From the NCBI RefSeq assembly GCF_000473325.1, contig NZ_KI421513.1:1993217-2057216 (forward strand): DNA of 64,000 bases, in the 5' to 3' direction. The notes beneath the pieces were generated by a model that was not told where the DNA came from, made no database searches, and saw only the letters and a program-made list of their open reading frames with translations. Made by a program: the position numbers and the translations under genes. This DNA is from Leisingera caerulea DSM 24564 (lineage in GTDB: Bacteria > Pseudomonadota > Alphaproteobacteria > Rhodobacterales > Rhodobacteraceae). Below, piece after piece: positions 11,735 through 29,091 of this stretch (positions are counted from its first letter, which is position 1; every line of letters starts with the position of its first letter).

Positions 11735-11779
11735 AGGGACTTTGGTCGAATACCGCGGCTTCTGCCGATGGGTTAAGCC
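11735..11779 (+). promoter_or_regulatory. Candidate PQQ-regulon promoter box E (aldehyde dehydrogenase)
   Basis: Box GACTTTGGTCGAATACCG (11738-11755), then 18 bp, then TAAGCC (11774-11779) as a possible -10. It is about 90 bp before the aldehyde dehydrogenase ATG. The same arrangement recurs before five other units of the alcohol-oxidation locus. Confidence 0.5.
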
Positions 11780-11870
11780 TTTAGGCAGCACCGGATCGAG
11801 TGCCTGCAATCGAAGGTGCATGGCTGCCAGTTCCGCTGCATTTCTTGGATCAATTCTTGGGAGGAATGGA

Positions 11871-13415
11871 ATGAACATCCACACGAAAGGGCTGGCCAAT
11901 TCGGCACTGGACACTGCGCATCTGGGCGTCGAATTTCCGTTCAAGCCCCGCTATGGCAACTTTATCAATGGCGAATTCATTGAGCCCCGCTCGGGCCTGT
12001 ATTTCGAGAATACAACCCCGATCACCGGCGATGTGATTTGCGAAATCGCCCGCTCAAACGCCGAGGATGTCGAGGCGGCCCTGGATGCCGCCCATGCGGC
12101 GTTTCCGTCCTGGGGCAGGACCTCGACCACCGAGCGCGCCAACATGCTGCTGAAGATCGCCGATATCATGGAGGCGAACACCCAGCTTCTGGCCGCGGCG
12201 GAGACGCTGGACAACGGCAAGCCGATCCGCGAGTCGATCGCCGCCGACCTGGCGCTGTGTGTCGATCACTGGCGCTATTTCGCGGGCTGCATCCGCGCCG
12301 AGGAAGGCCATATCTCCGAAATCGACGCGGACACCTATGCCTACCACACCCCGGAACCGCTGGGCGTGGTGGGGCAGATCATCCCGTGGAACTTCCCGCT
12401 GCTGATGGCGGTATGGAAGCTGGCGCCGGCGCTGGCGGCGGGCAACTGTGTGGTGCTGAAACCGGCGGAGCAGACCCCGGCCTCGATCATGGTGCTGGCG
12501 GAGCTGATCGCCGACGTGCTGCCGGCGGGTGTCTTGAACATCGTCAATGGTTTCGGGCTGGAGGCGGGCAAGCCTCTGGCGTCGTCCAGCCGGATCGCCA
12601 AGATCGCCTTTACCGGCGAGACTACCACCGGGCGGTTGATCATGCAGTATGCCAGCCAGAACCTGATCCCGGTGACGCTGGAACTGGGCGGCAAGTCGCC
12701 GAACATCTTCTTTAAGGATGTGATGGCCGCCGATGACGCCTATTTCGACAAATGCCTGGAAGGCTTCACCATGTTTGCCCTGAACCAGGGCGAGGTCTGC
12801 ACCTGCCCCAGCCGGGCGCTGATCCAGGAGTCGATCTACGACGACTTCATGGGCCGGGCCATCGAACGGGTGAAGGCGGTGAAGCAGGGCAACCCGCTGT
12901 CGATGGACACGATGATCGGCGCCCAAGCCTCGACCGAGCAGAAGGAGAAGATCGCCTCCTACCTGCAGCTGGGCAAGGATGAGGGCGCTGAGCTGCTGAC
13001 CGGCGGCAATGTCTCCTCCCTGGAGGGGCTGGAGGGCGGCAACTACATCGAGCCGACCGTGTTCAAGGGACACAACAAGATGCGGATCTTCCAGGAGGAA
13101 ATCTTCGGGCCGGTGCTGTCCGTCACCACCTTTAAGGACGACGCCGAGGCGCTGGAAATCGCCAATGACACGCTTTACGGCCTGGGCGCCGGGGTGTGGA
13201 CCCGCGACACCAACCGCGCCTTCCGCTTTGGCCGCGGCATTCAGGCAGGCCGGGTCTGGACCAACTGCTATCATGCCTATCCGGCGCACGCGGCCTTCGG
13301 CGGCTACAAGCAGTCGGGCATCGGCCGGGAGAACCACAAGATGATGCTGGATCACTACCGCCAGACCAAGAACCTGCTGGTGAGCTACAGCCCCAACGCG
13401 CTGGGGTTCTTCTAA
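11871..13415 (+). CDS. exaC: NAD+-dependent aldehyde dehydrogenase, PQQ-alcohol-oxidation associated
   Basis: A 514-aa ALDH with the class motifs: cofactor fold [10 protein letters not shown], general-base region ELGGKSPN, catalytic cysteine in [12 protein letters not shown], and EEIFGPV. It oxidises the aldehyde (acetaldehyde or similar) made in the periplasm by the quinoprotein alcohol dehydrogenase to the carboxylate in the cytoplasm. The start at 11871 has GGGAGG 7 nt upstream; the ORF extends 101 codons further with no support and into IS debris. It is followed by DUF779, its usual partner, after a strong hairpin. Confidence 0.93.
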
Positions 13416-13431
13416 GCAACCGCGTGACGGG

Positions 13432-13453
13432 CGGTCCCGGAATTCCGGGACCG
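13432..13453 (+). terminator. Hairpin/terminator between aldehyde dehydrogenase and DUF779 genes
   Basis: A perfect palindrome (CGGTCCCGG, AATT centre, mirror arm) is followed by TTTGCTTTT, the form of a rho-independent terminator. It is only 33 bp before the DUF779 ATG, so it probably lowers read-through into that gene or the gene has its own start. Confidence 0.7.
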
Positions 13454-13485
13454 TTTGCTTTTCCATTCAGCCTGGGGAGAGTGCA

Positions 13486-13833: not shown

Positions 13834-13850
13834 GGCGCACCGCGCCTTGC

Positions 13851-16052
13851 TCAGGTCAGCGCGCGCCCAAGGAAGCCGCGCAGCTCGCCGGTGTCAATCG
13901 GCTTGTGCAGCAGCACCGCGTTCAGCCTTGCGCAGGCTGCCGCCAGGTCCGGTGAGCGGTTGGCGGTTACCAGGCAGGCAGGTACTTGGCCGTGTTGCGC
14001 CCGGAGCGCAGCAATTGCATCGGTTCCCAGCGCGCCGTCGTCCAGCTGGTAATCGGCGATGATTGCGTCCGGGCCGATGTCGATTTCCTGCAGAAGCGAA
14101 CTTGCTTCGGCGCAGCTGGCGCAGGGCAGCACGTTCAGCCCCCAGCCGTCGAGCGTGTTCTCCAGCGCCGCCCTGAGGCCGGCATCGTTTTCGATCAGCA
14201 CCACAATCCGGTTTTTGAACGGCACCGCGGCGCCGTTACCGGGGGCGGGCAGCGGCGACGGCGCGCGCGCTGCGGTGCTCAGCGGCAGCTCCACCGAAAA
14301 GCAGGTGCCGCGCCCGACCTCTGAGGTGAGGTTCAGCGGATGTTTCAGCAGCCGACAGGCCCGCTCAACAATGGCGAGGCCCAGCCCCATGCCGTCCGAC
14401 GGGCTGGCCTTGGCGTTAAGCCGCTGAAACTCCTGAAATACCCTGTCCTGATGCTCCGTCGGGATGCCAGGGCCGGTGTCACGGACTTCCAGCAGCACCC
14501 GGCTGCGGCGTTGCCGCACCCCGATCAGAACCTTACCGCTATCAGTGTAGCGCACCGCGTTGGAGGCGAGATTCTGCAGGATGCGGCGGAGGTAAGCGGC
14601 GTCGCTTTCCACCACCGCGCCGCTGCGCACGACCCGGAATTCCAGCCCTTTGAGCCGGGCAACCGGTTCCAGCTCGTCCTTCAGCTGGTCCAGCATGCCG
14701 CTCAGGCTGATGGCGGTCCGGTCAATCGCAGCCAGGCCGGAGTCGAGCTTGGAGATGTCCAGAAGGGCGCCGAGGATACGCTCGACCGCGACAAGCGCGT
14801 TGCCGGCCTTGGCCGCCCGGTCCCTGAAGCCCGGATCCTGGAGATCATCCTCCAGCGAGCCGACATAAAGCTTGGCGGCGGACAGCGGTTGCAGCAGGTC
14901 GTGGCTGGCGGCGGCGACAAACCGCGATTTGGAGGCATTGGCGCGCTCCGCCTCCGACAGCGCGTCCTCCAGCTCCAGCGTCCGTTCGGCCACCCGCTGC
15001 TCCAGCGTTTCGTTGACCTGCGAAATAGTGCGGACCGCGGCGCGTTCGGCGGTGACATCGGTAAAGCTGATGACAAATCCCTTGTCGGGCATTTGCTGCG
15101 CAAAGACCGCGAGGATGCGGTCGCGGCCCATTCCGATCTCGAATGACAGGGGTGCCCGCTTGGCGCTGCTGGCCACCCAGGCCTCGATCTCCTCCAGCCG
15201 GGTGCCGCCCAGGATGCGGATGCTGCCGGCGGCCTGGCGGTAGAGGGTCGCGAAAAACATGCCCAGCTGGAACTTGCCCGCGGGCATCGACAGCAACTCT
15301 CCGGCGCGGCGGTTCCAGCCGACCAGGCGGTTTTGGGCATCGAAGATGCAGACACCCTGGTCGAGATGCTCCAGCGTTGCCTTGATGACGCGCGACTGAT
15401 CGTCCAGCAGCCGCTCGCGCTCCTGCCGCTCCAGCCGCATCATGTCGGTGATATCGGTCTGCAGGATCACGGTGCCGCCGTCGGAGGTGCGGTGCTCGCT
15501 GACCTGCAGCCAGCTGTTCCCGGCCATCATCACGTTGAACACCGCATGGTCGTCCTTGTGGCGGGCGATCCGGTAAGCTTCCCAGCCGGCGGCGGTCTCC
15601 CCCTCTGGCAGCGCCAGATGAGCGCTGGTCGCCACCAGGTTCACATAGTCGGCAAATTCCAGCCCCGGCCGCAGCAAGTGGTAGATATCGGCCAGGTGCT
15701 TGCCAAACCGGGTGTTGCACATGACGAGCACATCCTGTGCGTCAAACAGGGCAAAGCCTTCCTGCACCGTCTCAATCGCATTGGCCAGGTTGGCGCGGGC
15801 GGCCTCGGTTTCGGCATTTGCCAGCGCCAGTCTGGCGTTTGATTCATTGAGCAAGTCCAGCGCGTGCTCCAGCTCGCGGGTGCGCACGCGCACCTCCTCC
15901 TCCAGCATCACTGCGCGCTGGAACTGGGCATACGCCTCGCCGGAGGCATCCGAGCTTTGCTCGGCCCGGCGCATCAGGGTTTCGACGATTTTCAGAAGCT
16001 TCTGGTTCTGCCGTTCCGGCGGGTCACTGGGGTCGATCAGCTCATGCACCAT
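13851..16052 (-). CDS. Hybrid sensor histidine kinase (NahK/ErcS'-like)
   Basis: A 733-aa soluble kinase without membrane helices. An N-terminal coiled coil (about 10-100) is followed by two PAS-type domains (about 100-230 and 235-360, the latter with GVCIFDAQNRLVGWNRRA), a HisKA domain with His384 in ASHDLLQP, an ATPase domain (NLASNAVRYTD; DTGPGIP; GMGLGLAIV) and a C-terminal receiver with Asp667 (IIADYQLDD). It lies 3 nt after the FIST gene, as in Pseudomonas aeruginosa where the NO sensor NosP inhibits the adjacent kinase NahK/ErcS' within the ethanol-oxidation regulatory region. It probably controls the LuxR regulator of this locus; this is inference from synteny. Confidence 0.88.
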   Translation of the reverse strand: MVHELIDPSDPPERQNQKLLKIVETLMRRAEQSSDASGEAYAQFQRAVMLEEEVRVRTRELEHALDLLNESNARLALANAETEAARANLANAIETVQEGFALFDAQDVLVMCNTRFGKHLADIYHLLRPGLEFADYVNLVATSAHLALPEGETAAGWEAYRIARHKDDHAVFNVMMAGNSWLQVSEHRTSDGGTVILQTDITDMMRLERQERERLLDDQSRVIKATLEHLDQGVCIFDAQNRLVGWNRRAGELLSMPAGKFQLGMFFATLYRQAAGSIRILGGTRLEEIEAWVASSAKRAPLSFEIGMGRDRILAVFAQQMPDKGFVISFTDVTAERAAVRTISQVNETLEQRVAERTLELEDALSEAERANASKSRFVAAASHDLLQPLSAAKLYVGSLEDDLQDPGFRDRAAKAGNALVAVERILGALLDISKLDSGLAAIDRTAISLSGMLDQLKDELEPVARLKGLEFRVVRSGAVVESDAAYLRRILQNLASNAVRYTDSGKVLIGVRQRRSRVLLEVRDTGPGIPTEHQDRVFQEFQRLNAKASPSDGMGLGLAIVERACRLLKHPLNLTSEVGRGTCFSVELPLSTAARAPSPLPAPGNGAAVPFKNRIVVLIENDAGLRAALENTLDGWGLNVLPCASCAEASSLLQEIDIGPDAIIADYQLDDGALGTDAIAALRAQHGQVPACLVTANRSPDLAAACARLNAVLLHKPIDTGELRGFLGRALT

Positions 16053-16055
16053 TGC

Positions 16056-17225
16056 TCAGCCCTCGTCCGGCAGGTAGATCGCCACTCCGGTCAGGGTCTG
16101 GTTGACATGCATTGAATTAATCTGCTCGCCATAGGTCGAAAAGCCAACCACCCGGTTGTCGCGCAGGATGCGGGAAATGTCCTGCGAGACCTGTTTTTGC
16201 TGCGCTTCCAGCCGCCGCAGGATGCAGTCGCAGGCCAGGATGATCTCGGGGCGGCGCTTGGCGCTGAGGGCGGCCATCTCGCGCTCCAGGTGGGTCACCA
16301 TGTCCTCCGGCTCTGCCAGGGTCAGCACCACGCCCTCGTCAATGGCGGAGAAGAACACAAGCTCGTCATTGTCGGCGACGCGCTGGATGGCGCGCACGTG
16401 GTGCTGGTCGCCGAATTGCACGGCGACGGGGTGCGCGGCAAAGGTGAAGGCGGTCAGCTGCTCCGGGTCCTTGCCCAGCACCCGGGCGTATTCGCGGGCA
16501 GCGGGTTCAGCATTGATTTCATGCACCACCCGTCGGGCCGGGTCAGCCCCGGTCACCACCATGCGCTTTTCCGAGGGGATCAGGTGGTCAGTTTTAAACA
16601 CCTCGATCGGGCAGCGGCTGCGGATCTGGATCAGAATGGCGGCGTTGGAATGAGCCTGGCCGCCATGCAGCACAAAGGTTTTGCCAAAGTTGGTGCCGTC
16701 GCCCGCCGAGCCGCCGAAGAAGGCCACCGGCCCCAGCCCGACCGACAATTGCGAGGTCAGCGTGTCTTCCTTGGTGGAGAGCCCATCAACCAGCAGGAAG
16801 GTGAAGTCCGAGACCCAGTCCCCGGTGTTCTGCGCCATGTGATTGCGGTTGCGGATCATCCGTTCGATCACGCTGTGCGGATCGAAGCTGTCGAGGTCTT
16901 CGATCAGGATGGTGCGGGTCTGGAAATGCGACTGGGCAAAGCCGATGGCGACGATCTCGCCCTCAACATAGCCGGCTGCTGAAATTTCTCCTGCAGAGGT
17001 GCAGCCGACAACCTGCGCCGGGGCAAACCGGCGCTGGGCCTCGTCGATCAGCCGCGCAACGTCGGTGTCCGGAGACAGAAACAGAACCACCAGCGATAGG
17101 CCATTCGGGTTCAGCGCCTGTGCCAGTTGCTCGACAGCGTCCGCCGCCCGGCAGTCAACCGAGCCGGACCGGACAACCTGCGGTTTCGTCATGGTTGCAC
17201 CCGACGGACCATGGACAGGGCCCAT
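16056..17225 (-). CDS. FIST-domain sensor protein (NosP-like)
   Basis: A 389-aa protein with FIST_N (VVLFLSPDTDVARLIDEAQRRF...VVGCTSAGEI) and FIST_C (about 240-370, ending GFSTYGEQ). The GCTSAGE and STYGEQ motifs are typical. In P. aeruginosa the same family member NosP binds haem and NO and acts on the neighbouring hybrid kinase. The ATG at 17225 is preferred over an internal one because a strong GGGGAGGAG precedes it. Cotranscribed with the LuxR regulator upstream (33 bp) and the kinase downstream (3 bp). Confidence 0.87.
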   Translation of the reverse strand: MGPVHGPSGATMTKPQVVRSGSVDCRAADAVEQLAQALNPNGLSLVVLFLSPDTDVARLIDEAQRRFAPAQVVGCTSAGEISAAGYVEGEIVAIGFAQSHFQTRTILIEDLDSFDPHSVIERMIRNRNHMAQNTGDWVSDFTFLLVDGLSTKEDTLTSQLSVGLGPVAFFGGSAGDGTNFGKTFVLHGGQAHSNAAILIQIRSRCPIEVFKTDHLIPSEKRMVVTGADPARRVVHEINAEPAAREYARVLGKDPEQLTAFTFAAHPVAVQFGDQHHVRAIQRVADNDELVFFSAIDEGVVLTLAEPEDMVTHLEREMAALSAKRRPEIILACDCILRRLEAQQKQVSQDISRILRDNRVVGFSTYGEQINSMHVNQTLTGVAIYLPDEG

Positions 17226-17258: not shown

Positions 17259-17954
17259 CTAGGCGGACGGCGGCGTGTCTTGCAAGACGTTTGCAAAACT
17301 CGCCTGCTTGGCGGCCAGCACCGCCTGGGTGCGGCTTTGCACCCCCAGTTTGCGCATGATGGCTGTGATATGCGCCTTGACCGTGGTCTCGGCGATCGAC
17401 AGGTCATAGGCGATCTGCTTGTTCAGCTTGCCTTCGCAGATCAACTGCAGGATCCGGGCCTGCTGATTGGTCAGCTGCGACAGCCGTTGCAGCACGTCGT
17501 TGCTGCTGCCGCCGTTGTCTTCCAGCAATACGTATCCGTCGGGCAGGAACACCTTGCCCTGATTGATCGCCTCTACCGCCTTCTGAAACACGTCGCGCTG
17601 GCTGTGCTTGGGAATGAAGCCGTTGGCACCGGCATGGATCACGGAGCTGACAATCCGGTTGTCGGCCATCGAGGAGACGACCAGGATCGGGCAGTCCGTC
17701 ACCTTGCGCAGGCGCAGCAGCCCGTCCAATCCGTTGACGTCCGGCAGGTTCAGGTCCAGCACCACCAGGTCGATGCGGATACCCCCGCCGATCATGTCGA
17801 GCGCGGCCTGCAGGGCCGGCGCGGTGTGCATGCTGCTGATCGCGGTCACCGCCTGCAAGGTCATCGCCAGGGCGTCACAGAACAGCGGGTGGTCATCCAC
17901 CAGCAGCGCCGCATTGAACCTCGGAGTGGCCGGCGTGTCCGTGTGTGTTGGCAT
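17259..17954 (-). CDS. LuxR-family response regulator (ErbR/AgmR type)
   Basis: A 231-aa NarL-type regulator: receiver domain with acidic pair near LLVDDHP, phospho-acceptor Asp in LVVLDLNLPDV and Lys in FIPKHSQ; LuxR HTH at about 170-225 (LTNQQARILQLICEGKLNKQIAYDLSIAETTVKAHITAIMRKL, shortened here to its features). Family members ErbR/AgmR/ExaE activate quinoprotein alcohol dehydrogenase genes. The ATG at 17954 is chosen over a TTG at 17993 because the candidate -10 lies at 17984-17989. It probably reads the box found before the locus promoters, including its own. Confidence 0.88.
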   Translation of the reverse strand: MPTHTDTPATPRFNAALLVDDHPLFCDALAMTLQAVTAISSMHTAPALQAALDMIGGGIRIDLVVLDLNLPDVNGLDGLLRLRKVTDCPILVVSSMADNRIVSSVIHAGANGFIPKHSQRDVFQKAVEAINQGKVFLPDGYVLLEDNGGSSNDVLQRLSQLTNQQARILQLICEGKLNKQIAYDLSIAETTVKAHITAIMRKLGVQSRTQAVLAAKQASFANVLQDTPPSA

Positions 17955-17983: not shown

Positions 17984-18028
17984 AGCTTAGCAAGCGGGCA
18001 GCTGCAGGTGTATACGCCTAAAGTCGCA
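17984..18028 (-). promoter_or_regulatory. Candidate PQQ-regulon promoter box F (regulator operon)
   Basis: On the minus strand, GACTTTAGGCGTATACAC, 18 bp, then TAAGCT. It precedes the LuxR regulator ATG by 30 bp from the -10. It fits autoregulation of the regulator-sensor-kinase operon. Pattern found by eye. Confidence 0.45.
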
Positions 18029-18094: not shown

Positions 18095-19861
18095 TCAGTC
18101 TGCCTGAGCCAGTTGGCGGGGCAGGCGGAAGGTCCAGAGCATGCCGCCCTGGTTCAGGTAGTTGACCTTCTTGGCCACCTCGCCGCCCCACAGCGGCACC
18201 GCACCGCCCCAGCCGGAAATGACAGAGACATACTGCTCGCCGTTCTGTTCCCAGGTGATCGGCTGGCCGACAATGCCGGAGCCGGTCTGGAACGACCACA
18301 GTTCCTCGCCGGTTTCGTCGTCAAAGGCGATGAAGCGGCCCTCGGGGGTGCCGGTGAACACCAGGCCGCCCGCAGTGGTCATCACCCCGGCCCAGAGCGG
18401 TGCGTCGTTCTTGAATTCCCACTTGATCTCGCCGGTGTCCGGGTCGATCGCCTTGAGGCTGCCGATATGGTCCTCGTAGTTCGGCTTGATTGTGAAACCC
18501 GCGCCCAGATAGGCGGCGCCCTTCTTGTAGCTGATCGGCTCGTTCCAGATGTCCATGCCCCATTCGTTCGAGGGCACATAGAAGTTGCCGGTGTTCTGCG
18601 AGAACGCCATCGGCATCCAGTTCTTGCCGCCCAGGAACGACGGCGAGGCAAAGATCACCTCGCCCTTGTTGCCATCGGCTGCGTCCGCCGGGTTGCCGGG
18701 GCGGTTGTCCTCGTTGAACACCGGGCGGCCGGTGTCGTCGATGCGCTCAGCCCAGGTGATGTCCTTGACGAAGGGCGTTGCGCTGACGAATTTACCGTCC
18801 TCGCGGTTCAGAACATAGAAAAAGCCGTTGCGGTCGGCAGTGGCAAAGCGCTTGTTGCCGCTGCGGTCGGTGTAGGCGACCACCTCGTTCACGCCGTCAT
18901 AATCCCAGCCCTCGCGCGGGGTGGTCTGGAAGTGCCACTTGATCTCGCCGTTCGAAGGATCGATGCCGATGCGGCTGGCAGCGTAAAGGTTATCGCCCGC
19001 GTTGCCCTCGACCGGGGTGCCCGCGTTGCGCAGGTGGCTGTTCCAGGGCGCCGGGTTGCCGGCGCCGAAGACCAGCGTATCTGTCTCCGCATCATAGGAG
19101 CCGCCAAGCCAGGTGGCGCCGCCGCCGGTCTTCCACATGTCGCCCGGCCAGGTGGCGTTCAGGGTGCCGGTCATGGTGCTGTCCTCACCCTTGAAGGTGC
19201 CCATGTGGCCCTCGATCACCGGCCGGGTCCAGACCAGCTCGCCGGTTTCAGCGTCGCGCGCCTGCACCTCGCCGACGATGCCGAATTCGCCGCCGGAGTT
19301 GCCGGTGATCACCAGTCCGTTGACGATCAGCGGTGCCGCGGTCATCGAATAGCCGGCCTTGTAGTCGGCCACCTTTTTGCGCCATTTCACGTCACCAGTC
19401 TTCAGGTCCAGCGCCACGATGCGGGCGTCCAGCGTGCCGAAAAAGAAGGTGTCGCCATAGATAGCGCCGCCGCGGTTCACCACATCGCAGCAGGGCAGGA
19501 TGCCTTCGGGCAGCCGGGCGTCGTATTGCCAGATCTCCTGACCGGTCTCGACGTCGATGGCATAAACCCGGCTGTAGGAGCCAGTGATATACATGATGCC
19601 ATCATAGATCAGCGGCTGGGTTTCCTGGCCGCGCTGCTTCTCGCCGCCGAGGCTGAAGGCCCAGGCAGGCACCAGGTTTGCGACGTTGTCCTTGTTCAAA
19701 GTGTCCAGCGGGCTGTAGCGCTGCAGGTGCCGCCCCATCCCGTTGGTGACCACCTGCGTGGTGGTCGTCTGGTCGTTCTTGAGGTCGTCTTCGGTGACCC
19801 CGGCGTGGCTGACGCCCGCCATCATGGTCCCTGCGGCGACCGCCGTGATGAAGCGGTTCAT
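18095..19861 (-). CDS. PQQ-dependent alcohol dehydrogenase, periplasmic, lanthanide-type active site
   Basis: A 588-aa quinoprotein. An N-terminal signal peptide (about 20 residues, cleavage near SHA-G) is followed by an eight-bladed propeller with repeated tryptophan-docking segments ([26 protein letters not shown]). Adjacent cysteines Cys124-Cys125 form the vicinal disulphide over PQQ. The catalytic Asp is Asp320 in GWDYDG; residue 322 is also Asp. This extra Asp, two residues on, is the known marker of lanthanide-dependent enzymes (XoxF, PedH) and is Ala or Ser in calcium enzymes (MxaF, ExaA). No cytochrome domain, so it is the soluble type I class that passes electrons to cytochrome c550 (PedF, 24.4 kb). 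GGGAGGAG before the ATG. Confidence 0.93.
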
Positions 19862-20867: not shown

Positions 20868-21583
20868 GCCGCTTGACCCGTCAGCCTGAGAAAATGATCG
20901 GCCAGCCCCAGGCCGCCGCGCAGCTGGCGGGCGGTGCCGTCTTGCGCCAGCTTGCCGCGGTGCAGGATCAGCAACTGGTCGGCGTCTTCGACTTCGTCAG
21001 TCAGATGGGTCGCCCAAAGGACCGTCAGCCCCTTGTGCCGGGACAGGTCATGCACATGGGCGGTGATCGCGTGCCGGGTGGCCGCATCCAGCCCCACCGT
21101 CGGCTCGTCCAGCAGCAGCACCTTGGGATGGTGGATCAGGCTGCGGGCGATCTCCAGCCGGCGGCGGTGGCCGCCATTGAGGTCGCGCACCCGCTCGCCC
21201 AGCCGGCCGCGCATCTCCAGCCGCTCCAGCGCGGCCTCGATGCGGGCCTGCGCCCTGGCGCCGCGCAGCCCGTGCAGCGCGGCGAAATAGCTGAGGTTAC
21301 GCTGCACCGTCAGGTCCAGGTCCAGCGTCGGCTGCTGAAACACCACCCCCATCTGCCGCAGCGCCTTGCGCGGGGCGCGTGCCATGTCGTGGCCGGCAAC
21401 CTCAATTTTTCCCTGCGGCGCGGTGAACAGCCGGGTGAGCAGCGCAAACAGCGTCGACTTGCCAGCCCCGTTGGGGCCCAGCAGAGCGCAGAAAGTGCCG
21501 GGCTCAACCCGAAAGCCGACCCTGTCCAGAGCTTGCCGGGCGCCGTAGGTATAGCTCAGGTTTTCCACCCGCAGCCCGGTCAT
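20864..21583 (-). CDS. ABC transporter ATP-binding protein, PQQ-associated
   Basis: A 239-aa nucleotide-binding subunit: Walker A GPNGAGKST, Q-loop VVFQQPTLDLDLT, a signature loop that is NGGHRRRLE rather than LSGGQ, Walker B VLLLDEPT, and H-loop WATHLTDE. The weak signature is usual for the PQQ-linked family. ATGA overlaps tie it to the gene before (152-aa protein) and after (permease). Confidence 0.88.
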   Translation of the reverse strand: MTGLRVENLSYTYGARQALDRVGFRVEPGTFCALLGPNGAGKSTLFALLTRLFTAPQGKIEVAGHDMARAPRKALRQMGVVFQQPTLDLDLTVQRNLSYFAALHGLRGARAQARIEAALERLEMRGRLGERVRDLNGGHRRRLEIARSLIHHPKVLLLDEPTVGLDAATRHAITAHVHDLSRHKGLTVLWATHLTDEVEDADQLLILHRGKLAQDGTARQLRGGLGLADHFLRLTGQAA

Positions 21584-22038
21584 TGGATGGTGATCTCCAG
21601 CCGCTGGGTGTCGCCGGTGGAGCCGGGCACCTTGAGATGGTAATTCCCGGGCTTCAGAGCGATAAAACCGATCTCCATCTCGCCGGCCTCGTCGAACTCG
21701 ACGCTGTCGAGCCCCAACGGGCGGATCTCAAGGCCCTCCACGACAATCTCGTCAATCCACACCGCGCGGAAGAAATCGGAGCCGGTTAGGGCCAGCTCCT
21801 GACTGCCGTCGCCCTGGATTTCGAACTCGTAATAGGTGCCGGATTTCAGCAGCCACGGCGCATCGGTCAGCGGCATCCCCGCCGACAGGGTAATCGGCGG
21901 CAGGTCTTCCTTGTTGGCGGCGGACAGCAGCCCGGCGAGGCCGAGGCTGGCCTTGCCCGGATCATCATCGTCACCGGCCAGGGCGGCGGCGGGCAGCGCC
22001 AGGCACAGCGCCGCGGCAAAAAGGCGGGGTTTCAGCAT
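21580..22038 (-). CDS. Periplasmic protein of the PQQ-associated ABC module
   Basis: A 152-aa exported protein: signal peptide (residues 1-21, AALA-GDDDD) and a beta-rich mature part that looks like a small cupredoxin-type sandwich without metal-ligand residues. Located between the beta-propeller and ATPase genes, overlapping the latter. I recognise no named family beyond co-occurrence with PQQ alcohol oxidation clusters; its role is unknown. Confidence 0.7.
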   Translation of the reverse strand: MLKPRLFAAALCLALPAAALAGDDDDPGKASLGLAGLLSAANKEDLPPITLSAGMPLTDAPWLLKSGTYYEFEIQGDGSQELALTGSDFFRAVWIDEIVVEGLEIRPLGLDSVEFDEAGEMEIGFIALKPGNYHLKVPGSTGDTQRLEITIQ

Positions 22039-22087
22039 CTTGGATCCTCCTGTCAGGATGCGCCGCGCCGCCGGGGCGCGGCAGGTC

Positions 22088-23065
22088 TCAGGGGCGCAGC
22101 GCCGCGCCCCAGGGAAAACGGCCGACCTTGATCGATTTCAGCGCTTGGCGCTGGGCGGTGTCGATCACGGTCACATCGCCGGAAACGCCGTTGGTGGTGA
22201 ATAGCAGCGACTTGTCTGGCGAAAACGCCATGTGCCAGACCCGGCGGCCGACCAGGATGTAATCCTCCACCTCCAGCGTCTCAGCATTGACCACCGCCAC
22301 ATGGTTGGACGGCCCCAGCGCCACAAAGGCGGTCCTTTCATCGTCGGTGAAGGCAAAGCCCACCGGCTGCACCCTGTCAGGGTGCACCCCCTTGACCTCA
22401 AAGGCGATCTTGCCAGTCTCGGCTTGGGTGGCGGTGTCAAAGACCGTGATAGTGCCGCCGATCTCGGACGAGACCCACAGTGCGCTGCCGCCGGCAGTGA
22501 ATTCAGCGTGGCGCGGGCGGGAATCAACCAGCGTGTTGGCAAACAGCTGTTGCGTCTCCGTGTCGATCCAATGCGCCATGTTGGTGGTCTCGGAGGTGGT
22601 GATCGCGATCTTGCCATCAGGCGAGACCGCCATGCCCTCTGGCTCGATCCCGACATTAATCTGGGCGACCACCTTGCGGGTTTCGGTGTCGACCACCGTG
22701 GTCACGGCATCATCCTCGTTGGCGATATAAAGATGCCGGTCGTTGGGATGCAGCACGAACTGCTCGGGATCCTCGCCGGAGGGCAGCTCGTGCAGAACTT
22801 CCCCGGTAGCGGCGTCCAGAACCTGAACCGTGTCGCTGTCGGAGGCGCAGACATAGACCCGCGAGAAGTCCTTGGAGAAGGTGATGCCGCGCGGCCGCTC
22901 TCCTGTTGCGATGGTGCGGACCACCTCCAGCGTGGCGATGTCGATCACGCTGATGGTGTCGTCCTTCTCGTTGGTGACCCAGATTTCCGCGGCGCCAAGA
23001 GGCGTGGCGGCGGCCAGAAGTGCCGGAAAGGCCAGCGCGGCAAGAGGTTTAGCAGAAAATGTCAT
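22088..23065 (-). CDS. PQQ-catabolism-associated beta-propeller protein (YncE/YVTN type)
   Basis: A 325-aa secreted propeller: signal peptide (about 26 residues, GAA-EIW), then seven YVTN-like repeats (TISVIDIATLEVV, TVQVLDAATGEVL, AVTTVVDTETRKVV, TVTVIDTAQRQAL). Such proteins are regular members of the PQQ-associated ABC module. Overlaps the binding-protein gene by ATGA (23062-23065). Presumably periplasmic; ligand unknown. Confidence 0.85.
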   Translation of the reverse strand: MTFSAKPLAALAFPALLAAATPLGAAEIWVTNEKDDTISVIDIATLEVVRTIATGERPRGITFSKDFSRVYVCASDSDTVQVLDAATGEVLHELPSGEDPEQFVLHPNDRHLYIANEDDAVTTVVDTETRKVVAQINVGIEPEGMAVSPDGKIAITTSETTNMAHWIDTETQQLFANTLVDSRPRHAEFTAGGSALWVSSEIGGTITVFDTATQAETGKIAFEVKGVHPDRVQPVGFAFTDDERTAFVALGPSNHVAVVNAETLEVEDYILVGRRVWHMAFSPDKSLLFTTNGVSGDVTVIDTAQRQALKSIKVGRFPWGAALRP

Positions 23066-24225
23066 TGGAAGGCTCCGCAGCGGCTTTCGGGTTCATCAAG
23101 GCCCAGGGTGTCGAGTTCACTGTGCTGGTGCAGGAAGCCGGGCAAGGGCGCCTGCGCCGCCAGAGCGCGGGGAGTGGCAAGCGGGATCGGCTGGCGCAGC
23201 TGGCCGTTCCAGCTGCGGTAGCTGAGCGGACGGCCCTTGAAACCGGCCAGCTCGAACGCGTCCGACAGCAGGTATTGGCGCAAGACGCCCGCGTCGGCTG
23301 AGCCGGTGCGGGTCACAGCCTCTCCGATGCTGCGCACCGCGGCCCAGGCGGCGTAATCCCGTGCCAGCATTTTGCGCCCGGCAAGGTCCTGAAACCGCGA
23401 TTGCAGCTGCGCGGCGCCCCATTGTTCGACAACCGGCGCCCATGTGGTCGGCACCAGGCCTTCGGAGCCGGCAACCGGCCGCGGCAGCCAAGTGTTATAA
23501 GGAAGGTAGCGGGCGAAATCCTGCAGCTCATCGGCGACCAGCAGCAGATCGTGGCGGCCCAGCCCCTGCGACATCAGCGGCACCTCCTGGGCGGCGTTGC
23601 GGCGCATGTCGGCGCCATAGTCCCAGGTCCGTTCGGCAGTGATTTTTAGCCCGAACTTGGCGGCGCTTTGGCGCAAGGCAGCGGCAAACGCCTGATCCTG
23701 CGGGTGGCCGCCGGAGATCAGCGCCAGACCAGTCCAGCGCTTGGACAGCGCAAACTGCATCAGCGCATCGCTGCGCATCAGGTCCGAGGGCAGGGTGTGC
23801 AGCAGATTGCGGCGGCAGTCGCCGCTGCGCAGGCCGGTGTCCGGGCTGGCAGTGTTGAACAACAGCGCATCCTGTGCTTCCGGCAGGGCGGCGGCGGCCA
23901 GCAGCGCCGGTTTGGGCGCATCCAGTATCAGCAGCGTGCTGCGGCTCAAAGCCGCCCGCGCCGCCGCGGCAAAATCGCCGCCCGGCGGCACCGCCACCGT
24001 CTCCAGGCTGTAGTCGTGGCCAAGGAAGCTGCCTGTGGTCCGGTTGTCCGCCAGTCCCAGCCGGGCGCCGGTTTCGCCCAGGTCCGCGGGCGGCGGGTCG
24101 AGATTGGAGAGGGTGGGGGGCTGCCGCTCCTGCTGTTTCAGGTAGATGACCGGCACCTCAACCCCGTTGGCAGCGGCAAGGGCGGCGGGCAAAAGGGCTA
24201 TCAGAAGTGTGATCAGAAAACGCAT
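23062..24225 (-). CDS. Substrate-binding protein of PQQ-associated ABC module
   Basis: A 387-aa type I periplasmic-binding-like protein: signal peptide (MRFLITLLIALLPAALAAANG region) and a Leu/Ile/Val-receptor-like fold (ASPDTGLRSGDCRRNLLHTLPSD region resembles family members). It is the first gene of a five-gene operon (binding protein, propeller, 152-aa protein, ATPase, permease). The start at 24225 is placed at the signal peptide; the longer ORF would read back through the promoter. Confidence 0.85.
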   Translation of the reverse strand: MRFLITLLIALLPAALAAANGVEVPVIYLKQQERQPPTLSNLDPPPADLGETGARLGLADNRTTGSFLGHDYSLETVAVPPGGDFAAAARAALSRSTLLILDAPKPALLAAAALPEAQDALLFNTASPDTGLRSGDCRRNLLHTLPSDLMRSDALMQFALSKRWTGLALISGGHPQDQAFAAALRQSAAKFGLKITAERTWDYGADMRRNAAQEVPLMSQGLGRHDLLLVADELQDFARYLPYNTWLPRPVAGSEGLVPTTWAPVVEQWGAAQLQSRFQDLAGRKMLARDYAAWAAVRSIGEAVTRTGSADAGVLRQYLLSDAFELAGFKGRPLSYRSWNGQLRQPIPLATPRALAAQAPLPGFLHQHSELDTLGLDEPESRCGAFQ

Positions 24226-24255: not shown

Positions 24256-24301
24256 AGCGTACTGCCGCCCGCAGCCCTGCGGCCATTGGACCAAGGTCGT
24301 A
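24256..24301 (-). promoter_or_regulatory. Candidate PQQ-regulon promoter box B (ABC module)
   Basis: Minus strand: TAC + GACCTTGGTCCAATGGCC (full box 24281-24301), 19 bp, then TACGCT (24256-24261). The -10 is about 30 bp before the binding-protein ATG. The divergent pedF side has a weaker version (AACT..GTATC with TATGCT at 24359-24364). Confidence 0.5.
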
Positions 24302-24395
24302 GGCCGCCTGCGCTGTTCTCCAACTTAAGTCGCGTATCGGGGCAGGGGTCGGGCTGGCTATGCTTGCGGCAAGCTCAAACTTACGGGAGGAACTC

Positions 24396-25073
24396 ATGTT
24401 CAAATTGCCTCTTGCGGCCCTCGGGCTCGCGGCTCTTGCCACGGCGGCGCAGGCCCACGGAGACGTCGCGCCGCAGCCGGTGAATACCGATGCCCTGCCC
24501 GAAGTGGGCGAGGAATGGCTGACCGAAAACCCCTATCGCGGCCAGGAGACGGAGGTCTGGCAGGCGGCGATCGACATCGGCGGCAGCGGCTACAATCAGA
24601 ACTGCGCCCGCTGCCACGGGCTGGGCGGCGTCTCTGGCGGGCTGGCCCCGGACCTTCGTTACTTGGAGGCCGAGGAGATGGGCGACGAGTGGTTTGTCGA
24701 GCGATTCCGCACCGGGTATACTCAGAACGGCATCACCAAGATGCCCGCTTTCGGGGAGTTGCTGGGCCAGAAGGCCGCCTGGGCAATCCGCACCTATCTG
24801 GAAACCCGGCCTGATGACGGCGCGCTGGATGAGGCCACCGGCCGGCTGCTGGAGATCCGCGATGAGCTGACAACCTTGGCCAGCGGCGGCGGCGGTGATG
24901 CGGCGGCGCTGCGGGCGGAGCTTTCAAAAATCGCGGAAGGGGTCGAAACCGGGTCCGGCGCTCCGGTGGCCGACAGCGCGCCCTACCGGGCTGCCAGCCT
25001 GATCGGCGGCGCGCAGCCGGACTTTGCCGGGGCCGCGGAGGTCCTGACTGTCGGCCTCTCGGCGGCGCACTGA
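24396..25073 (+). CDS. pedF: Cytochrome c-550, PedF type (electron acceptor of the alcohol dehydrogenase)
   Basis: A 225-aa periplasmic c-type cytochrome: signal peptide (TAAQA-H), one haem site C70-A-R-C-H74 and an axial Met (GITKMPAF). After the cytochrome core (to about residue 150) comes a 70-residue helical tail. GGGAGGA before the ATG; the upstream ORF extension is unsupported. PedF/ExaB cytochromes take electrons from type I quinoprotein alcohol dehydrogenases. Confidence 0.9.
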   Translation: MFKLPLAALGLAALATAAQAHGDVAPQPVNTDALPEVGEEWLTENPYRGQETEVWQAAIDIGGSGYNQNCARCHGLGGVSGGLAPDLRYLEAEEMGDEWFVERFRTGYTQNGITKMPAFGELLGQKAAWAIRTYLETRPDDGALDEATGRLLEIRDELTTLASGGGGDAAALRAELSKIAEGVETGSGAPVADSAPYRAASLIGGAQPDFAGAAEVLTVGLSAAH

Positions 25074-25092
25074 GGCAGGGGGGCTGCGGCAC

Positions 25093-25995
25093 ATGAAACA
25101 GCAGCTGGCCGGATTTCTTGCGATTGCTGCGCTGGCCTGCGGCTGGGCGCAGCCCGGGCAGGCCCGCTGTGCGGATCACGTGCCGCAGCCCAAGCCGCAG
25201 AACGCCTCACGCGATATTGTCGGGCAGGACCTGGAAACCATCATCGAGCGGGGCTTCATCACCTTCGCGGCCTATGAGGAATTTCCCCCTTGGTCTTACG
25301 AGGAGGCGGGCCGCATCCAAGGCGCCGATATCGACCTCGCCCGGCTGATTGCCGCGGAGCTAGGGGTCGAGGCCCGCTTCACCCTGGTCGCGGCGGGCGA
25401 AAATCTGGACGCAGACCTGCGCAACTGGATCTGGAAGGGGCCGGTCGTGGGCGGCAGCGTCGCCAATGTCATGCTGCATGTGCCCTATGACAGCGAATTT
25501 GCCTGCCGGGTCGAACAGGTGGTGTTCACCGGCCAGTACCATGTGGAGGAAGTGGCGATTGCCTACCGCCGGGAGGCCTATACTGAAGACCCGCCGGTGC
25601 CGGCTTATTTCCGCTTCGACAGCGTCGCAGTGGAAAACGACTCGATTGCCGATTTCTACCTCTCGGCCTTTCCCGGCGGCCAGCTCAGCGGCAATATCCG
25701 CCGCTACCCGACGGCGGCGGACGCAATGGCGGGTTTGGATCGGGCAGAGACCAAGGCCGCAATGGGTCCGCTGGCGCAGCTGGAGGCCGGGCTGACTGAA
25801 CAGACTGCCGTCCATACGCCGCCGCTGCCCGGCTTCTCCGCAGGCACATGGACCGCCGGGATAGCGGTGCATTTCTCCTACCGCCCGCTGGCCTATGCGG
25901 TGGAGGATGCGATTGCCGCCGGGCTGCAGGATGGCCGGATTGCCGCAATTTTTGCAGCCCACGGCCTGAGTCACCGGCCGCCAGAGCTGCGCTGA
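25093..25995 (+). CDS. Quinoprotein-associated periplasmic binding protein (XoxJ/MoxJ-like)
   Basis: A 300-aa type II periplasmic-binding fold protein: signal peptide (about 1-24, GQA-RC), then the SBP_bac_3 pattern (GFITFAAYEEFPPWSYEE, GADIDLARLIAAELG). XoxJ/MoxJ relatives sit beside methanol/ethanol quinoprotein dehydrogenases and are thought to help activate or mature the enzyme rather than import a solute. Lies 19 bp after pedF, so cotranscribed. Confidence 0.82.
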   Translation: MKQQLAGFLAIAALACGWAQPGQARCADHVPQPKPQNASRDIVGQDLETIIERGFITFAAYEEFPPWSYEEAGRIQGADIDLARLIAAELGVEARFTLVAAGENLDADLRNWIWKGPVVGGSVANVMLHVPYDSEFACRVEQVVFTGQYHVEEVAIAYRREAYTEDPPVPAYFRFDSVAVENDSIADFYLSAFPGGQLSGNIRRYPTAADAMAGLDRAETKAAMGPLAQLEAGLTEQTAVHTPPLPGFSAGTWTAGIAVHFSYRPLAYAVEDAIAAGLQDGRIAAIFAAHGLSHRPPELR

Positions 25996-26001: not shown

Positions 26002-26904
26002 TTACCTCAGCAATTTCACGCTGCCATCCTGCGCCAGCAGGGTGGCATTGGTGCCTGCAGGGAGGCGCGCCAGCGCAGCGGTGATTTCACCTTCGCTCAT
26101 CAGGCAGAAGGCGGTGGAGGCCGCATCCGCCAGCGCGGCGCTTGCGGCCTCGGTGCTGACGGTGACCCATTTCGGCCGCCGGTCAAACGCGGGGTGCAGG
26201 ATGTGCGCCGCACCGTGCAACTGCAAGGCGCCGGGGCTCGAGGTTGCCACGGCCCTGTTTTTCAGGCTGCAGGCGGCGAAGATGCCGTGCTCCGGATCGG
26301 CCAACCCGATGCGGAACGGACCGCCGAGGGCGGCAAACTCCCCGGCATTGACCAAAACCCGCTCCAGCCCCATGCGGCCTAGCGCGGCGCGGACCATGTC
26401 GGTGGCATAGCCCTGGGCAATGCCGTTGAATGTCAGCGCCTGTCCTTGCGCCAGCCGGATTGTCTGTTCTGTCACGGACACCTTGTGCCAGCCTGCGAGG
26501 CGGGCGGCCTTTCTGATGCCCTCACTGCGCGCGGCGGCCTGCCAGAGCGGCTGGACCGAAGGGTCGAAGACCCCAGCCGTTGCCGCGTGCATCCGGGTGC
26601 AGAGCCGGGCCAGATCCAGAAACCGCGGCGGCGGGTTCCTCAGAACCCCGGTCCGGTTCAGCTGGGACAATGCGGAGGCCGGATCGTAGAGGCTGAACAG
26701 CTGTTCGGCCTGCCTCAGCTGTGATAGCACGGCCGCTATCGCTTGGTCTGCCAGCAGCGGCGGCGCGTGAATGGTCAGACGCGCCTCGGCGCCCAAGGCA
26801 AATCCCCGCCAGGTTACAGGTGCTGCTTGTAGCGCCGGGGCCGTGGCACCAAGGGCGGCGGCAGAGATGGCCAGGAACCGGCGGCGGGACAGTTTGGCGC
26901 TCAT
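26002..26904 (-). CDS. apbE: FAD:protein FMN transferase (ApbE)
   Basis: A 300-aa exported ApbE: a Tat-type N-terminus (SRRRFLAIS) and the conserved segments LFSLYDPASALSQLN, FDPSVQPLW, NGIAQGYATDMV, LVNAGEFAALGG and a Thr/Ser-Asp-Ala-type metal site region (ALADAASTAFCLM). It attaches FMN covalently to a Thr/Ser of a partner. The start codon overlaps the stop of the NosR-like gene (ATGA at 26901-26904), so that protein, which has an FMN-binding domain, is the obvious target. Confidence 0.9.
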   Translation of the reverse strand: MSAKLSRRRFLAISAAALGATAPALQAAPVTWRGFALGAEARLTIHAPPLLADQAIAAVLSQLRQAEQLFSLYDPASALSQLNRTGVLRNPPPRFLDLARLCTRMHAATAGVFDPSVQPLWQAAARSEGIRKAARLAGWHKVSVTEQTIRLAQGQALTFNGIAQGYATDMVRAALGRMGLERVLVNAGEFAALGGPFRIGLADPEHGIFAACSLKNRAVATSSPGALQLHGAAHILHPAFDRRPKWVTVSTEAASAALADAASTAFCLMSEGEITAALARLPAGTNATLLAQDGSVKLLR

Positions 26905-28985
26905 TCCGCAGCCTCCAGCTGTTGTTTCTTGCGCGCTGCCAGGATCAGCGGCACGCAGCGGGCCGCATCGTCGTGGATCGACACACAGTCGAGACAGCCG
27001 AAGCATTCGTCATAGCGGACCGCGCCGGATGTTTCGATCGCGCCATAGACGCATTTCACCCGGCACAGCTGGCAGGGGCTGCCGCAGGCGGCCCGCCGGG
27101 CGATCCAGTTGCGCCGCCGCAGCAGCCCGCCCGCCGCCATCGCCGCGCCCAGCGGGCACAGGTAGCGGCAGAAGGGCTTGAAAAACATCAGTGCTGCCGC
27201 CAGCCAGAAGACGGCATATGCAGTGAAATACCACTCGCGCAGGAAATAGGTGGTGATCGCGGTCTTGAAGGGCTCAACCTCCGCCGCGGTGTCCACATGC
27301 TCCGGCGCCACGAACACCAGCGAAACCAGCCCGGCCAGCACCCCGTATTTTAGATACCGGAGCCGCCCGTCCCAGGCTGGCGGAAGCGCTGTTTGCGGCA
27401 GACCCAGCTTGCGGCCCAGATGGTGCGCGAACTCCTGCAGCGCGCCGAACGGGCACAGCCAGCCGCAGAACAGGGCACGTCCCCACAGGACAAGCCCGAG
27501 GATGGCAAAGCCCCAAAGCAGCAGCGAAAACGGGTCATAGGCGAGAAAGGCAAAGCTGCTGCCCCCAACCGCCGTGCGCAGCACGCCCAGCACGGTGACG
27601 ATGGACAGCTGGCCCTGGCCCCACCAGCCGATGAACAGGGTGACAACCGCCAGCACCGACAGCCGCAGAGGTGTCAGCACCTTGCGGGCGGCGATCCGGC
27701 TCTGGGCCAGCAGCAGGGCGGCGGTCAGCGCGCTCAGCAGCAGCGTCAGAAGGATCAGATCCGTGCGGCGGCTGCGCAGTGCCTCGAGCCAGGGCGGCAC
27801 AGGCGCCGGGGCCGCGTCCCGCAGGAAGAAGCGTTCGGGGGTCTGGTGCGTGACCGGAAATTCCACGGTGCCGGTCTCGGGCTGGAACATGCCGTGCTCG
27901 CGCACCGCCTGGGCGTGCAGGGTCCACTCCTGCGCCGGGTCAAAGCCGAGGCGGCGGTCGGCCCGCAGGATCATCGCCGTGCCGTCGTGCAGAGGCTGGG
28001 GCAGGTCCGGCGATAGCTCCACCAGCAGATCGCTGTCCCGCAGTGCCACCGGAAGGCCGTTTTGCGTGGCAAACACCCGGTCCGGGGCGGTGTTGCGGAT
28101 GAACTCCGGGCTGACCAGCCCATGGCGGCCGGTCTCGATCAGCAAGAGCGGCTCATCATCAGGGGAGATCGCCAGGAAATCCTGCAACTCGCTGTAACCC
28201 TCGCGCGACAAAACTGCCTGCGCGATCGACGGCGGGCCGACGTCGATGATCCATAGATCCAGATAGGGCGCTTCGGGATGCTGTTGCGCCTCCGGATCGT
28301 CATCGGCCCAAAGGGTGCCGGCAAAGGCCGCGTCAACCTCCGCATTGGAGACGGTGGCTCGGGTGGCCAGCCACTGATCGACCAGCGCCGCCCAGTCCAG
28401 CGGCTCATTGTGGTCCGGGTCCGGCCAGGCCGGGGGCGCTGTAACAACACCGTGCATCTTCTCGCGCGCCACCGCCAGCGCGGCGGCCATCACCGAGTCA
28501 TGCGCGATCCGCACCGACGCGGTCGCCTTACTCACTCCGTCGAGGTAGACAAGAGATGAGCCGGAACCCGTCTCACCGTAAGGAGTGCCGACGGTGATCG
28601 CCGAGAAGACCGACAGGCCGGGATACTGCTCGAAGAACCTGTGGAACGGGGCCGGGCCAAGCCCGGAAACAAAGACCGGCTCGTTATGGCTGATCAGCCG
28701 GACATCCAGAAAGGTGCCGTCCAGATCCAGCAGCACCAGCACGTTGACCGGCGCGCCGGAAAACCCGGGCAGGGGGGCCAGCGGCTCGGTTTCAAAGGCA
28801 TAGCCCGCTTCCGCCCCGCCGGAGTTGAGCAGGGTATAGACACCCTTGCTGTTCACCGGCTCACCCAAAGAAAATGGCGGCATGATCAGGGCGCTGATCT
28901 CCTCGCGGGGCAATGGCGACGCCGCCAGCACGCCACCCGCAAACAGCCAGGCCTGAAGACAGAGTATGAACCGGGATACGCGCAT
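26901..28985 (-). CDS. NosR/NirI-like membrane flavo-iron-sulphur protein
   Basis: A 694-aa protein: signal peptide, periplasmic FMN-binding domain (about 60-200; likely attachment site in DGVSKATAS near residue 165), further periplasmic part to about 410, five to six transmembrane helices (about 420-660) with two CxxxCP-type motifs (CGWLCPFG; CRYLCPLG), and a C-terminal ferredoxin-like segment (CGSPCQLCRVKC; CFGCLDC). NosR drives electrons from quinol to periplasmic proteins in nitrous oxide reduction; no nos genes are present, so here it more likely serves the alcohol oxidation system. There is no clear ribosome site; see box D. Confidence 0.85.
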   Translation of the reverse strand: MRVSRFILCLQAWLFAGGVLAASPLPREEISALIMPPFSLGEPVNSKGVYTLLNSGGAEAGYAFETEPLAPLPGFSGAPVNVLVLLDLDGTFLDVRLISHNEPVFVSGLGPAPFHRFFEQYPGLSVFSAITVGTPYGETGSGSSLVYLDGVSKATASVRIAHDSVMAAALAVAREKMHGVVTAPPAWPDPDHNEPLDWAALVDQWLATRATVSNAEVDAAFAGTLWADDDPEAQQHPEAPYLDLWIIDVGPPSIAQAVLSREGYSELQDFLAISPDDEPLLLIETGRHGLVSPEFIRNTAPDRVFATQNGLPVALRDSDLLVELSPDLPQPLHDGTAMILRADRRLGFDPAQEWTLHAQAVREHGMFQPETGTVEFPVTHQTPERFFLRDAAPAPVPPWLEALRSRRTDLILLTLLLSALTAALLLAQSRIAARKVLTPLRLSVLAVVTLFIGWWGQGQLSIVTVLGVLRTAVGGSSFAFLAYDPFSLLLWGFAILGLVLWGRALFCGWLCPFGALQEFAHHLGRKLGLPQTALPPAWDGRLRYLKYGVLAGLVSLVFVAPEHVDTAAEVEPFKTAITTYFLREWYFTAYAVFWLAAALMFFKPFCRYLCPLGAAMAAGGLLRRRNWIARRAACGSPCQLCRVKCVYGAIETSGAVRYDECFGCLDCVSIHDDAARCVPLILAARKKQQLEAAE

Positions 28986-28992
28986 GGCTGGC

Positions 28993-29037
28993 AGTCTGCC
29001 GGGCCCAAACACCCCGTGCCATAGGACCAAAGTCTGA
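28993..29037 (-). promoter_or_regulatory. Candidate PQQ-regulon promoter box D (NosR-like/ApbE)
   Basis: Minus strand: GACTTTGGTCCTATGGCA (within 29017-29034), 18 bp, then CAGACT (28993-28998). The predicted transcription start would fall almost on the NosR-like ATG, implying a leaderless mRNA, in line with its lack of a Shine-Dalgarno. This is the weakest -10 of the set. Confidence 0.4.
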
Positions 29038-29046
29038 GACTGCCCC

Positions 29047-29091
29047 TACGACCAAAGGCCAATACCGGGGCCGGAGGCAGGTAGCTAGGCT
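29047..29091 (+). promoter_or_regulatory. Candidate PQQ-regulon promoter box C (pqqABCDE)
   Basis: Plus strand: TAC + GACCAAAGGCCAATACCG (full box 29047-29067), 18 bp, then TAGGCT (29086-29091). The pqqA ATG is 31 bp further. Boxes C and D are inverted and 9 bp apart, so one regulator array could drive both directions. Confidence 0.5.

Follow-up and report, generated by a model that had tools for sequence, protein, structure and literature searches.

The window analysed here is a stretch of 64,000 nucleotides from contig NZ_KI421513.1 of Leisingera caerulea DSM 24564. It contains a gene cluster for pyrroloquinoline quinone (PQQ)-dependent alcohol oxidation in which copies of one box precede seven transcription units (Table 1). 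The boxes are very likely the operator of a single regulon, at whose seven promoters the NarL/LuxR-type response regulator encoded in the locus would exert class II activation. This reading is supported because the box is conserved before first genes, stands at a fixed spacing from a -10-like hexamer, occurs where the regulator occurs, precedes the regulator's own gene, and matches ACTU, a motif that the response regulator CrbR/ErdR uses to switch on acetate genes in Pseudomonas (PMC5715377). An initial annotation of the window had proposed an activator box at the -35 position, read by the LuxR-type regulator of the locus. The comparative tests fit that proposal; a test on adhC promoters was negative.

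Sequence, spacing and ACTU likeness of the box

The box is an inverted repeat; 113 sites collected from related loci give it the consensus TACGACCWWGGTCSAAT, or T-A-C-G-A-C-C-W-W-G-G-T-C-S-A-A-T. Its core, GACCWWGGTC, is symmetric over 10 bp, and the 3' flank AAT is better conserved than the 5' flank. A TANNNT-like hexamer begins 36 or 37 bases past the G of GAC, and at least two of T1, A2 and T6 are present in 107 of the 113 sites; 27 control pairs of offsets give 5 to 37 sites. The six 18-mers of the initial annotation are all exact and lie where they were reported, and direct reading confirms a -10-like hexamer 18–19 bp after each box. For box 1 a script picked the next register (AAGCCT, 11775–11780). 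The annotation listed the hexamers in the same order as the 18-mers, but the order of the 18-mers differs from that of the genes it named. It overlooked the palindromy, the likeness to ACTU and the membership of the regulator in a three-gene module of response regulator, FIST protein and histidine kinase.

The sites were scored with three matrices. The window-only matrix counts a site with a score of at least 10 within 300 bp upstream of a gene, and the ACTU-only matrix, built from five published Pseudomonas fluorescens sites, is independent of the window. The 113 sites served to train the refined matrix, and because some of their species may recur in the test sets used afterwards, results with the other two are quoted first.

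ACTU is needed for CrbR-dependent activation, is located at -52 to -36, and functions in Escherichia coli once CrbR is supplied (PMC5715377). In the work of Henriquez and Jung, ErdR (the same protein as CrbR) shifted the PP_0354, scpC and actP-I promoters and did not shift acsA-I, whose fragments were without a predicted motif (PMC8402216). With the ACTU-only matrix, six of the boxes take ranks 1, 2, 3, 5, 6 and 8 in the window, which offers 127,968 positions. After permutation of the matrix columns, 198 of 200 versions bring no box of the six into the top 20, one brings in a single box and another brings in two. The strongest ACTU match is box 4 (TACGACCTTGGTCCAAT), which is palindromic and scores on the plus strand too, at 24289. 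The centre of the box would coincide with the ACTU position if the predicted transcription starts, some 7 bases downstream of the -10 hexamer, are right. By their sequence, the boxes are ACTU-like operators.

The weaker seventh copy that the annotation had seen facing pedF (AACTTAAGTCGCGTATCG) is genuine. It scores low (12.4 with the refined matrix, rank 47 with the ACTU matrix) yet is conserved in an alignment of relatives, being retained as AACYTAAGTCKCGTAT in L001, L046 and L047 and present in the same columns as a stronger version, AACCAAGGTCGAAT, in L002 and L053. With up to two mismatches the pattern of the initial annotation finds eight matches in the window (the six boxes, the opposite strand of one of them, and one unrelated place) where 1.99 are expected and 100 shuffles give at most 6. 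Since the sites themselves had supplied that pattern, the independent test is the ACTU matrix. Leave-one-out ranks of the other boxes are 1–9 of 127,966, with a matrix that included a seventh row placed 2 bases off (24324).

Recognition of the box by an alternative sigma factor, as a -35 element of unusual length rather than an activator site, is highly improbable. It would account for the location of the box at the -35 place, for the 18–19 bp spacer to the hexamer, and for the 3' half (A12, T13) being more conserved than the 5' half. It is opposed by the symmetry of the core, by the activity of the closely similar ACTU in E. coli once CrbR is supplied (PMC5715377), and by the presence of the box tracking that of the regulator.

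The site profile shows no conserved -35 hexamer next to the -10, as in activator-dependent promoters. This feature bears on a further alternative, namely that the box is a repressor site, with the promoters kept shut by the regulator until it is released by a signal. A site abutting -35 could act either way, and the related RfdRS of Rhodobacter sphaeroides is described as a repressor (PMC4776306). CrbR and AfdRS, however, are described as activators (PMC5715377, PMC4776306), and with the missing -35 hexamer we consider repression quite unlikely.

The NosR-like gene has a distinctive geometry. Its box lies 47–51 bases from the start codon in 13 of 14 relatives and 49 bases from it in the window (28985–29034), where no clear Shine-Dalgarno sequence is seen. 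The start codon thus coincides with the predicted transcription start, and the mRNA is predicted to be leaderless. The exception among relatives is L003, with 62 bases and GGGAGGA. Another local variation concerns the pqqA promoter, which in L002 and L053 has TACGACCAAAGGAGCATT or TTAGACCAAAGAAGCATT in place of the full box.

Enrichment of the patterns alone over the whole genome was not seen: a 14-position core pattern gives 13 matches against 12 for its reversed control, and a 17-position pattern with one mismatch gives 111 against 189. Five of the 13 matches are boxes of the locus, the alcohol dehydrogenase and pedF boxes being missed by this pattern. Seven of the remaining eight lie within open reading frames (ORFs) of at least 80 codons, one of these scoring 19.7 with the refined matrix, and the eighth has nothing above 5.8 in its stretch. 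These other matches being intra-ORF or low-scoring, no box was found outside the locus within the limits of the 14-position pattern. A wider regulon in this genome was rejected on the same grounds, and L130, read as ORFs, was dropped.

Conservation of the box and its association with the regulator

Conservation in orthologous promoters, a check that the initial annotation had proposed, was assessed in 83 regulator-chosen loci, the best 80 of a genome contig scan and three plasmid loci, with gene starts estimated by tblastn and the nearest start codon. With the window-only matrix the box lies upstream of the alcohol dehydrogenase gene in 32/37 cases, pedF in 32/37, the ATP-binding cassette (ABC) operon in 22/34, the NosR-like gene in 12/14, pqqA in 7/13 and the aldehyde dehydrogenase gene in 4/11. 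It stands before none of 278 genes presumed to lie inside operons (FIST, permease, ATPase, hypothetical, YVTN, second binding protein, FMN transferase, pqqC, D and E), and permuted matrices give a mean of at most 1.23 matches in each box-led family. DUF779 upstream regions contain it in 1/7 cases and those of pqqB in 6/11, the latter presumably because pqqA is very short.

At a score of at least 15 the refined matrix finds 200 sites in the 83 loci, in which palindromes may count twice. Forty lie outside the families sought, and 18 of these are intragenic according to a crude ORF caller. Among 15 that were inspected, nine stand before a CoxG-like gene, three before Sel1-like genes and one before a pseudoazurin-like gene; CoxG was named by likeness to the L002 annotation and the other names were given by eye, so these are leads only. 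Boxes before the CoxG-like gene are found at L079:14152, L096:14301, L111:14200 and L002:24506 on the plus strand, and in L093 and L053 on the minus strand (positions 0-based on the named strand). In L002 a (2Fe-2S) protein and xanthine dehydrogenase family subunits are annotated downstream of the box-led CoxG-like gene, so that a molybdenum aldehyde oxidase may be part of the regulon in relatives.

Association with the regulator was examined in samples drawn without regard to it. In 95 of 96 Rhodobacterales pedF stretches (one without a start codon was dropped) the promoter carries the box in 77 cases with the window-only, 85 with the ACTU-only and 75 with the refined matrix, against permuted means of 1.46, 1.47 and 0.08. 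Among 94 genomes with pedF, 93 have a regulator of at least 48% identity, as do 4 of 20 genomes listed without pedF (Fisher P 6e-15, with the cut chosen after the values were seen and kinship uncorrected, as in all these association statistics). The 20 are those listed among 295 genomes, not a random draw.

The YVTN gene provided another sample. It was found in 53 of 349 genomes at 58 places, of which 56 were taken; the window's own and that of G028, whose pedF promoter has the box, were left out. In ped-type promoters the window-only matrix finds the box in 8/13 cases (9/13 with the refined matrix at 15) where the genome has a regulator of at least 55% identity, in 4/25 (5/25) where a 35–54% regulator and a FIST gene are in the stretch, and in 0/24 (0/24) where neither condition holds, though some of this last class hold either a 35% regulator or a FIST gene. 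Other cluster types give 0/3, 0/3 and 0/23 for the same classes with the window-only matrix. L211 (genome G326) keeps a cluster whose dehydrogenase, pedF and NosR-like products are 84%, 63% and 63% identical to those of the window; it has only an ErdR-like regulator, and no box was found in it. In a class-wide draw of 289 genomes, seven alphaproteobacterial pedF genes from other genomes that passed the cut-off have the box in 2/2 cases with the regulator and 1/5 without it (window-only, at least 10).

In a tree of 131 regulators the locus regulator falls in a clade apart from those of ErdR and AgmR (support 100/100; some branches are long), and Paracoccus and Cereibacter regulators fall within its clade. 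Its recognition region is close to that of ErdR. Together, the likeness of the recognition region and the distribution of the box indicate that the locus regulator very probably reads the boxes. It is unlikely that the palindrome is instead the operator of another response regulator, such as a counterpart of ErdR/CrbR, with the locus regulator acting elsewhere. The motif is proven for ErdR/CrbR (PMC5715377), and an erdR mutant of Pseudomonas aeruginosa has lowered exaA, exaB and pqqA transcripts (PMC8546858); but the next-best regulator of this genome is 33–34% identical, with a different recognition region, and the box tracks the locus regulator even when compared with genomes that have only an ErdR-like regulator, such as G326/L211.

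Several results weigh against a box read by the locus regulator. The regulator sits in a clade of its own, neither that of ErdR nor that of AgmR. An autoregulatory box precedes the regulator gene in only 14 of 82 loci with the window-only matrix, and kinase upstream regions also reach 10 in 8 of 87. G754 (L378) has pedF and the box, and the regulator was not found in it; its pedF contig is only 9.9 kb, so an assembly gap is possible. The L142 pedF promoter scores 18.6 with the ACTU matrix in a genome that has 37–44% regulators and no ortholog. EmaR, 53% identical to ErdR, is reported to have a different MEME motif (PMC9603970), and RpuR of the alphaproteobacterium Sinorhizobium fredii to use an imperfect direct repeat; that organism also has a CrbS/R homolog (PMC9100948).

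The adhC test weighs on the same side. AfdRS activates adhC in R. sphaeroides, as FlhRS does in Paracoccus denitrificans (PMC4776306), so that if the regulator is an AfdR/FlhR that reads the box, adhC promoters should carry it. No box was found before 16 adhC genes in 14 genomes with this regulator clade, nor in the present genome, among the top three of the two best sites per strand per stretch, with genes starting about 1,500 bases in and start codons unmodelled. The regulator may be related to AfdR/FlhR but have different targets; the alternative is that adhC is controlled through a site of another kind.

If the locus regulator is the activator, a mechanism can be proposed. The boxes, their spacing, their conservation and their co-occurrence with the regulator are computed results, whereas its binding, activation in place of repression, its phosphorylation by the adjacent kinase and the signal are inferred. 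Phosphorylation of the regulator would be set by the products of two neighbouring genes, the kinase and the NosP-like FIST protein, possibly in response to nitric oxide sensed through the NosP-like protein. The phosphorylated dimer would bind the inverted repeat TACGACC-WW-GGTCSAAT, whose centre lies some 44 bp upstream of the transcription start, next to the -35 region, and would recruit sigma-70 RNA polymerase. The promoters for alcohol dehydrogenase, the PQQ cofactor, cytochrome c550, the ABC module, the NosR-like protein, aldehyde dehydrogenase and the regulator itself would thus be activated in step.

Relation to known systems and a second operator type

The boxes share with the ACTU sites of CrbR/ErdR, which serve acetate use in Gammaproteobacteria, the kind of inverted repeat, the distance to the -10, a NarL/LuxR-type regulator and a related carbon chemistry (PMC5715377). 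They differ in preceding PQQ alcohol-oxidation genes in Alphaproteobacteria, and their proposed reader is not a CrbR/ErdR ortholog: its best NCBIfam match is ErdR, at 152 bits against a cut-off of 390. CrbR/ErdR is served by CrbS/MxtR, an SLC5-fused kinase, whereas the kinase here is NahK/ErcS'-like with a FIST partner.

The gene order resembles AfdR-AfdT-AfdS of R. sphaeroides and FlhR-orf2-FlhS of P. denitrificans, in which regulator and kinase genes likewise flank an ORF; these are Rhodobacterales systems of formaldehyde and alcohol metabolism (PMC4776306). AfdT and the orf2 product are presumably FIST proteins. The resemblance was judged from the described gene arrangements, and the described target, adhI/flhA, is without the box in the relatives tested. 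The ped/exa cluster of Pseudomonas also has a local LuxR-type activator, AgmR/ErbR (PedR1), with a similar gene set and a NosP plus an ErcS'/NahK kinase in the cluster (PMC12997753). The locus regulator is placed in a separate clade from AgmR/ErbR, and such clusters carry TACTACCWWGGTASTA rather than GACCWWGGTC.

This second pattern was found after the fact, by inspecting near-matches. In twelve ped loci of other classes (444 kb of strand) it has 30 matches with up to two mismatches, at 19 places in 11 loci after palindromes matched on both strands were merged by hand, and the box pattern has none. In the 83 alphaproteobacterial loci (3.3 Mb of strand) the numbers are 3 and 94. Of two control patterns, one matches once and the other four times in the twelve loci, and neither matches in the 83; a looser core gives 45 and 33. 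Box-matrix scores of at least 12 before ped genes of other classes were limited to pedF of L207 (17) and the second-binding-protein gene of L230 (15). With the ACTU matrix at 11 or more, 5 of 56 such promoters match against a permuted mean of 1.3; the permuted maximum is 9, so these matches are not significant.

The two operator types differ in the base beside an exact ACCWWGGT core. Before first genes of the 83 loci, whose regulators belong to the AfdR/FlhR-like clade, 115 of 144 half-sites have G at this place. The ped loci of other classes have T there in 14 of 14 half-sites, these being seven sites in related genomes, all before a binding-protein gene. These counts point to a single operator family whose outer base pair varies by clade. 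In the recognition helix and the residues that follow it, two contrasting versions occur, one of them KAHVSAILRKLxVHNRVQ. A broader scheme is tentative and somewhat less than evenly probable: ErdR, AgmR and the AfdR/FlhR-like regulators would share an ACCWWGGT code in which the flanking pair separates the clades, a few residues in the recognition helix and just beyond it would decide which alcohol-oxidation regulon each can activate, and nitric oxide would act on it through a NosP-like partner. f178 is presumably Pseudomonas-like, from one ErdR match of 436.5 bits.

In the open-access literature (most subscription journals lie outside it) we found no description of this operator before alphaproteobacterial PQQ alcohol-oxidation genes, of its link to ACTU, or of a DNA target for the module of response regulator, FIST protein and kinase. 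Regulator terms were not found in PMC5934484 and nothing on the site in PMC9927547; PMC8879981 yielded FlhRS passages of a general kind. The boxes define a candidate DNA target for a widespread alphaproteobacterial module, would place seven promoters under one switch in an alcohol oxidation system that may depend on lanthanides, and would connect the control of acetate use with that of alcohol use through a shared type of operator. They also raise a question of specificity, that of G or T beside ACCWWGGT.

Genes and setting of the locus

Table 1. Boxes and genes of the PQQ alcohol-oxidation locus. Coordinates are window positions; transcription starts are predicted.
Feature	Coordinates	Strand	Description	-10 hexamer	Start
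Box 1	11738..11755	+	precedes ExaC-type aldehyde dehydrogenase	TAAGCC, 11774-11779	~11787
Box 2	18008..18025	-	precedes response-regulator gene (putative autoregulation)	TAAGCT, 17984-17989	~17977
Box 3	19949..19966	-	precedes PQQ alcohol dehydrogenase	GATACT, 19925-19930	~19918
Box 4	24281..24298	-	precedes ABC-module operon	TACGCT, 24256-24261	~24249
Box 5	24322..24339	+	weak seventh copy; precedes pedF	TATGCT, 24359-24364	~24371
Box 6	29017..29034	-	precedes NosR-like gene	CAGACT, 28993-28998	~28986, = start codon
Box 7	29050..29067	+	precedes pqqA	TAGGCT, 29086-29091	~29098
ExaC acetaldehyde dehydrogenase	11871..13415	+	902.4 bits, cut-off 900; box-led		
Hybrid histidine kinase, NahK/ErcS'-like	13851..16052	-	below curated cut-offs; proposed partner kinase		
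NosP-like FIST protein	16056..17225	-	408.5 bits, cut-off 450; proposed kinase modulator		
Response regulator, NarL/LuxR type	17259..17954	-	proposed reader of the boxes		
PQQ-dependent methanol/ethanol-family dehydrogenase	18095..19861	-	box-led; carries WDYDG (D-x-D)		
ABC module, one presumed operon	20067..24225	-	substrate-binding protein, YVTN beta-propeller, hypothetical, ATPase, permease; box-led		
pedF cytochrome c550 and substrate-binding-like protein	24396..25995	+	box-led		
NosR-like membrane protein and FAD:protein FMN transferase	26002..28985	-	FMN transferase named via L001 annotation; box-led		
pqqA-pqqB-pqqC-pqqD-pqqE	29123..32251	+	box-led at pqqA		

The genes of the ABC module belong, in the order of Table 1, to TIGR03863, TIGR03866, no family (the hypothetical protein), TIGR03864 and TIGR03861. 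The locus also has a DUF779 gene, so named after the annotation of L001. A D-x-D such as that of the dehydrogenase is regarded in one paper as diagnostic for PQQ dehydrogenases that use lanthanides (PMC11996626). The ABC module is similar to PedA1A2BC, which Pseudomonas putida needs for lanthanide-dependent growth. From these two features, the regulon may serve lanthanide-dependent alcohol oxidation.

The contig that bears the window measures 3.5 Mb, and the genome 5.3 Mb. The closest plasmid record among the matches listed, in a search that may omit very near records, is from Leisingera thetidis, with DNA 84% identical over the queried cluster. Neither pedF nor the regulator is seen in G742 and G884, and their congener G780 has both. 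Because the two are patchy within one genus and the cluster is on a plasmid in L. thetidis, the cluster looks accessory. Directly before it, at 8377–11560, are a tyrosine-recombinase-like ORF, a transposase-like ORF and an integrase-core transposase fragment, as named from the reading frames.

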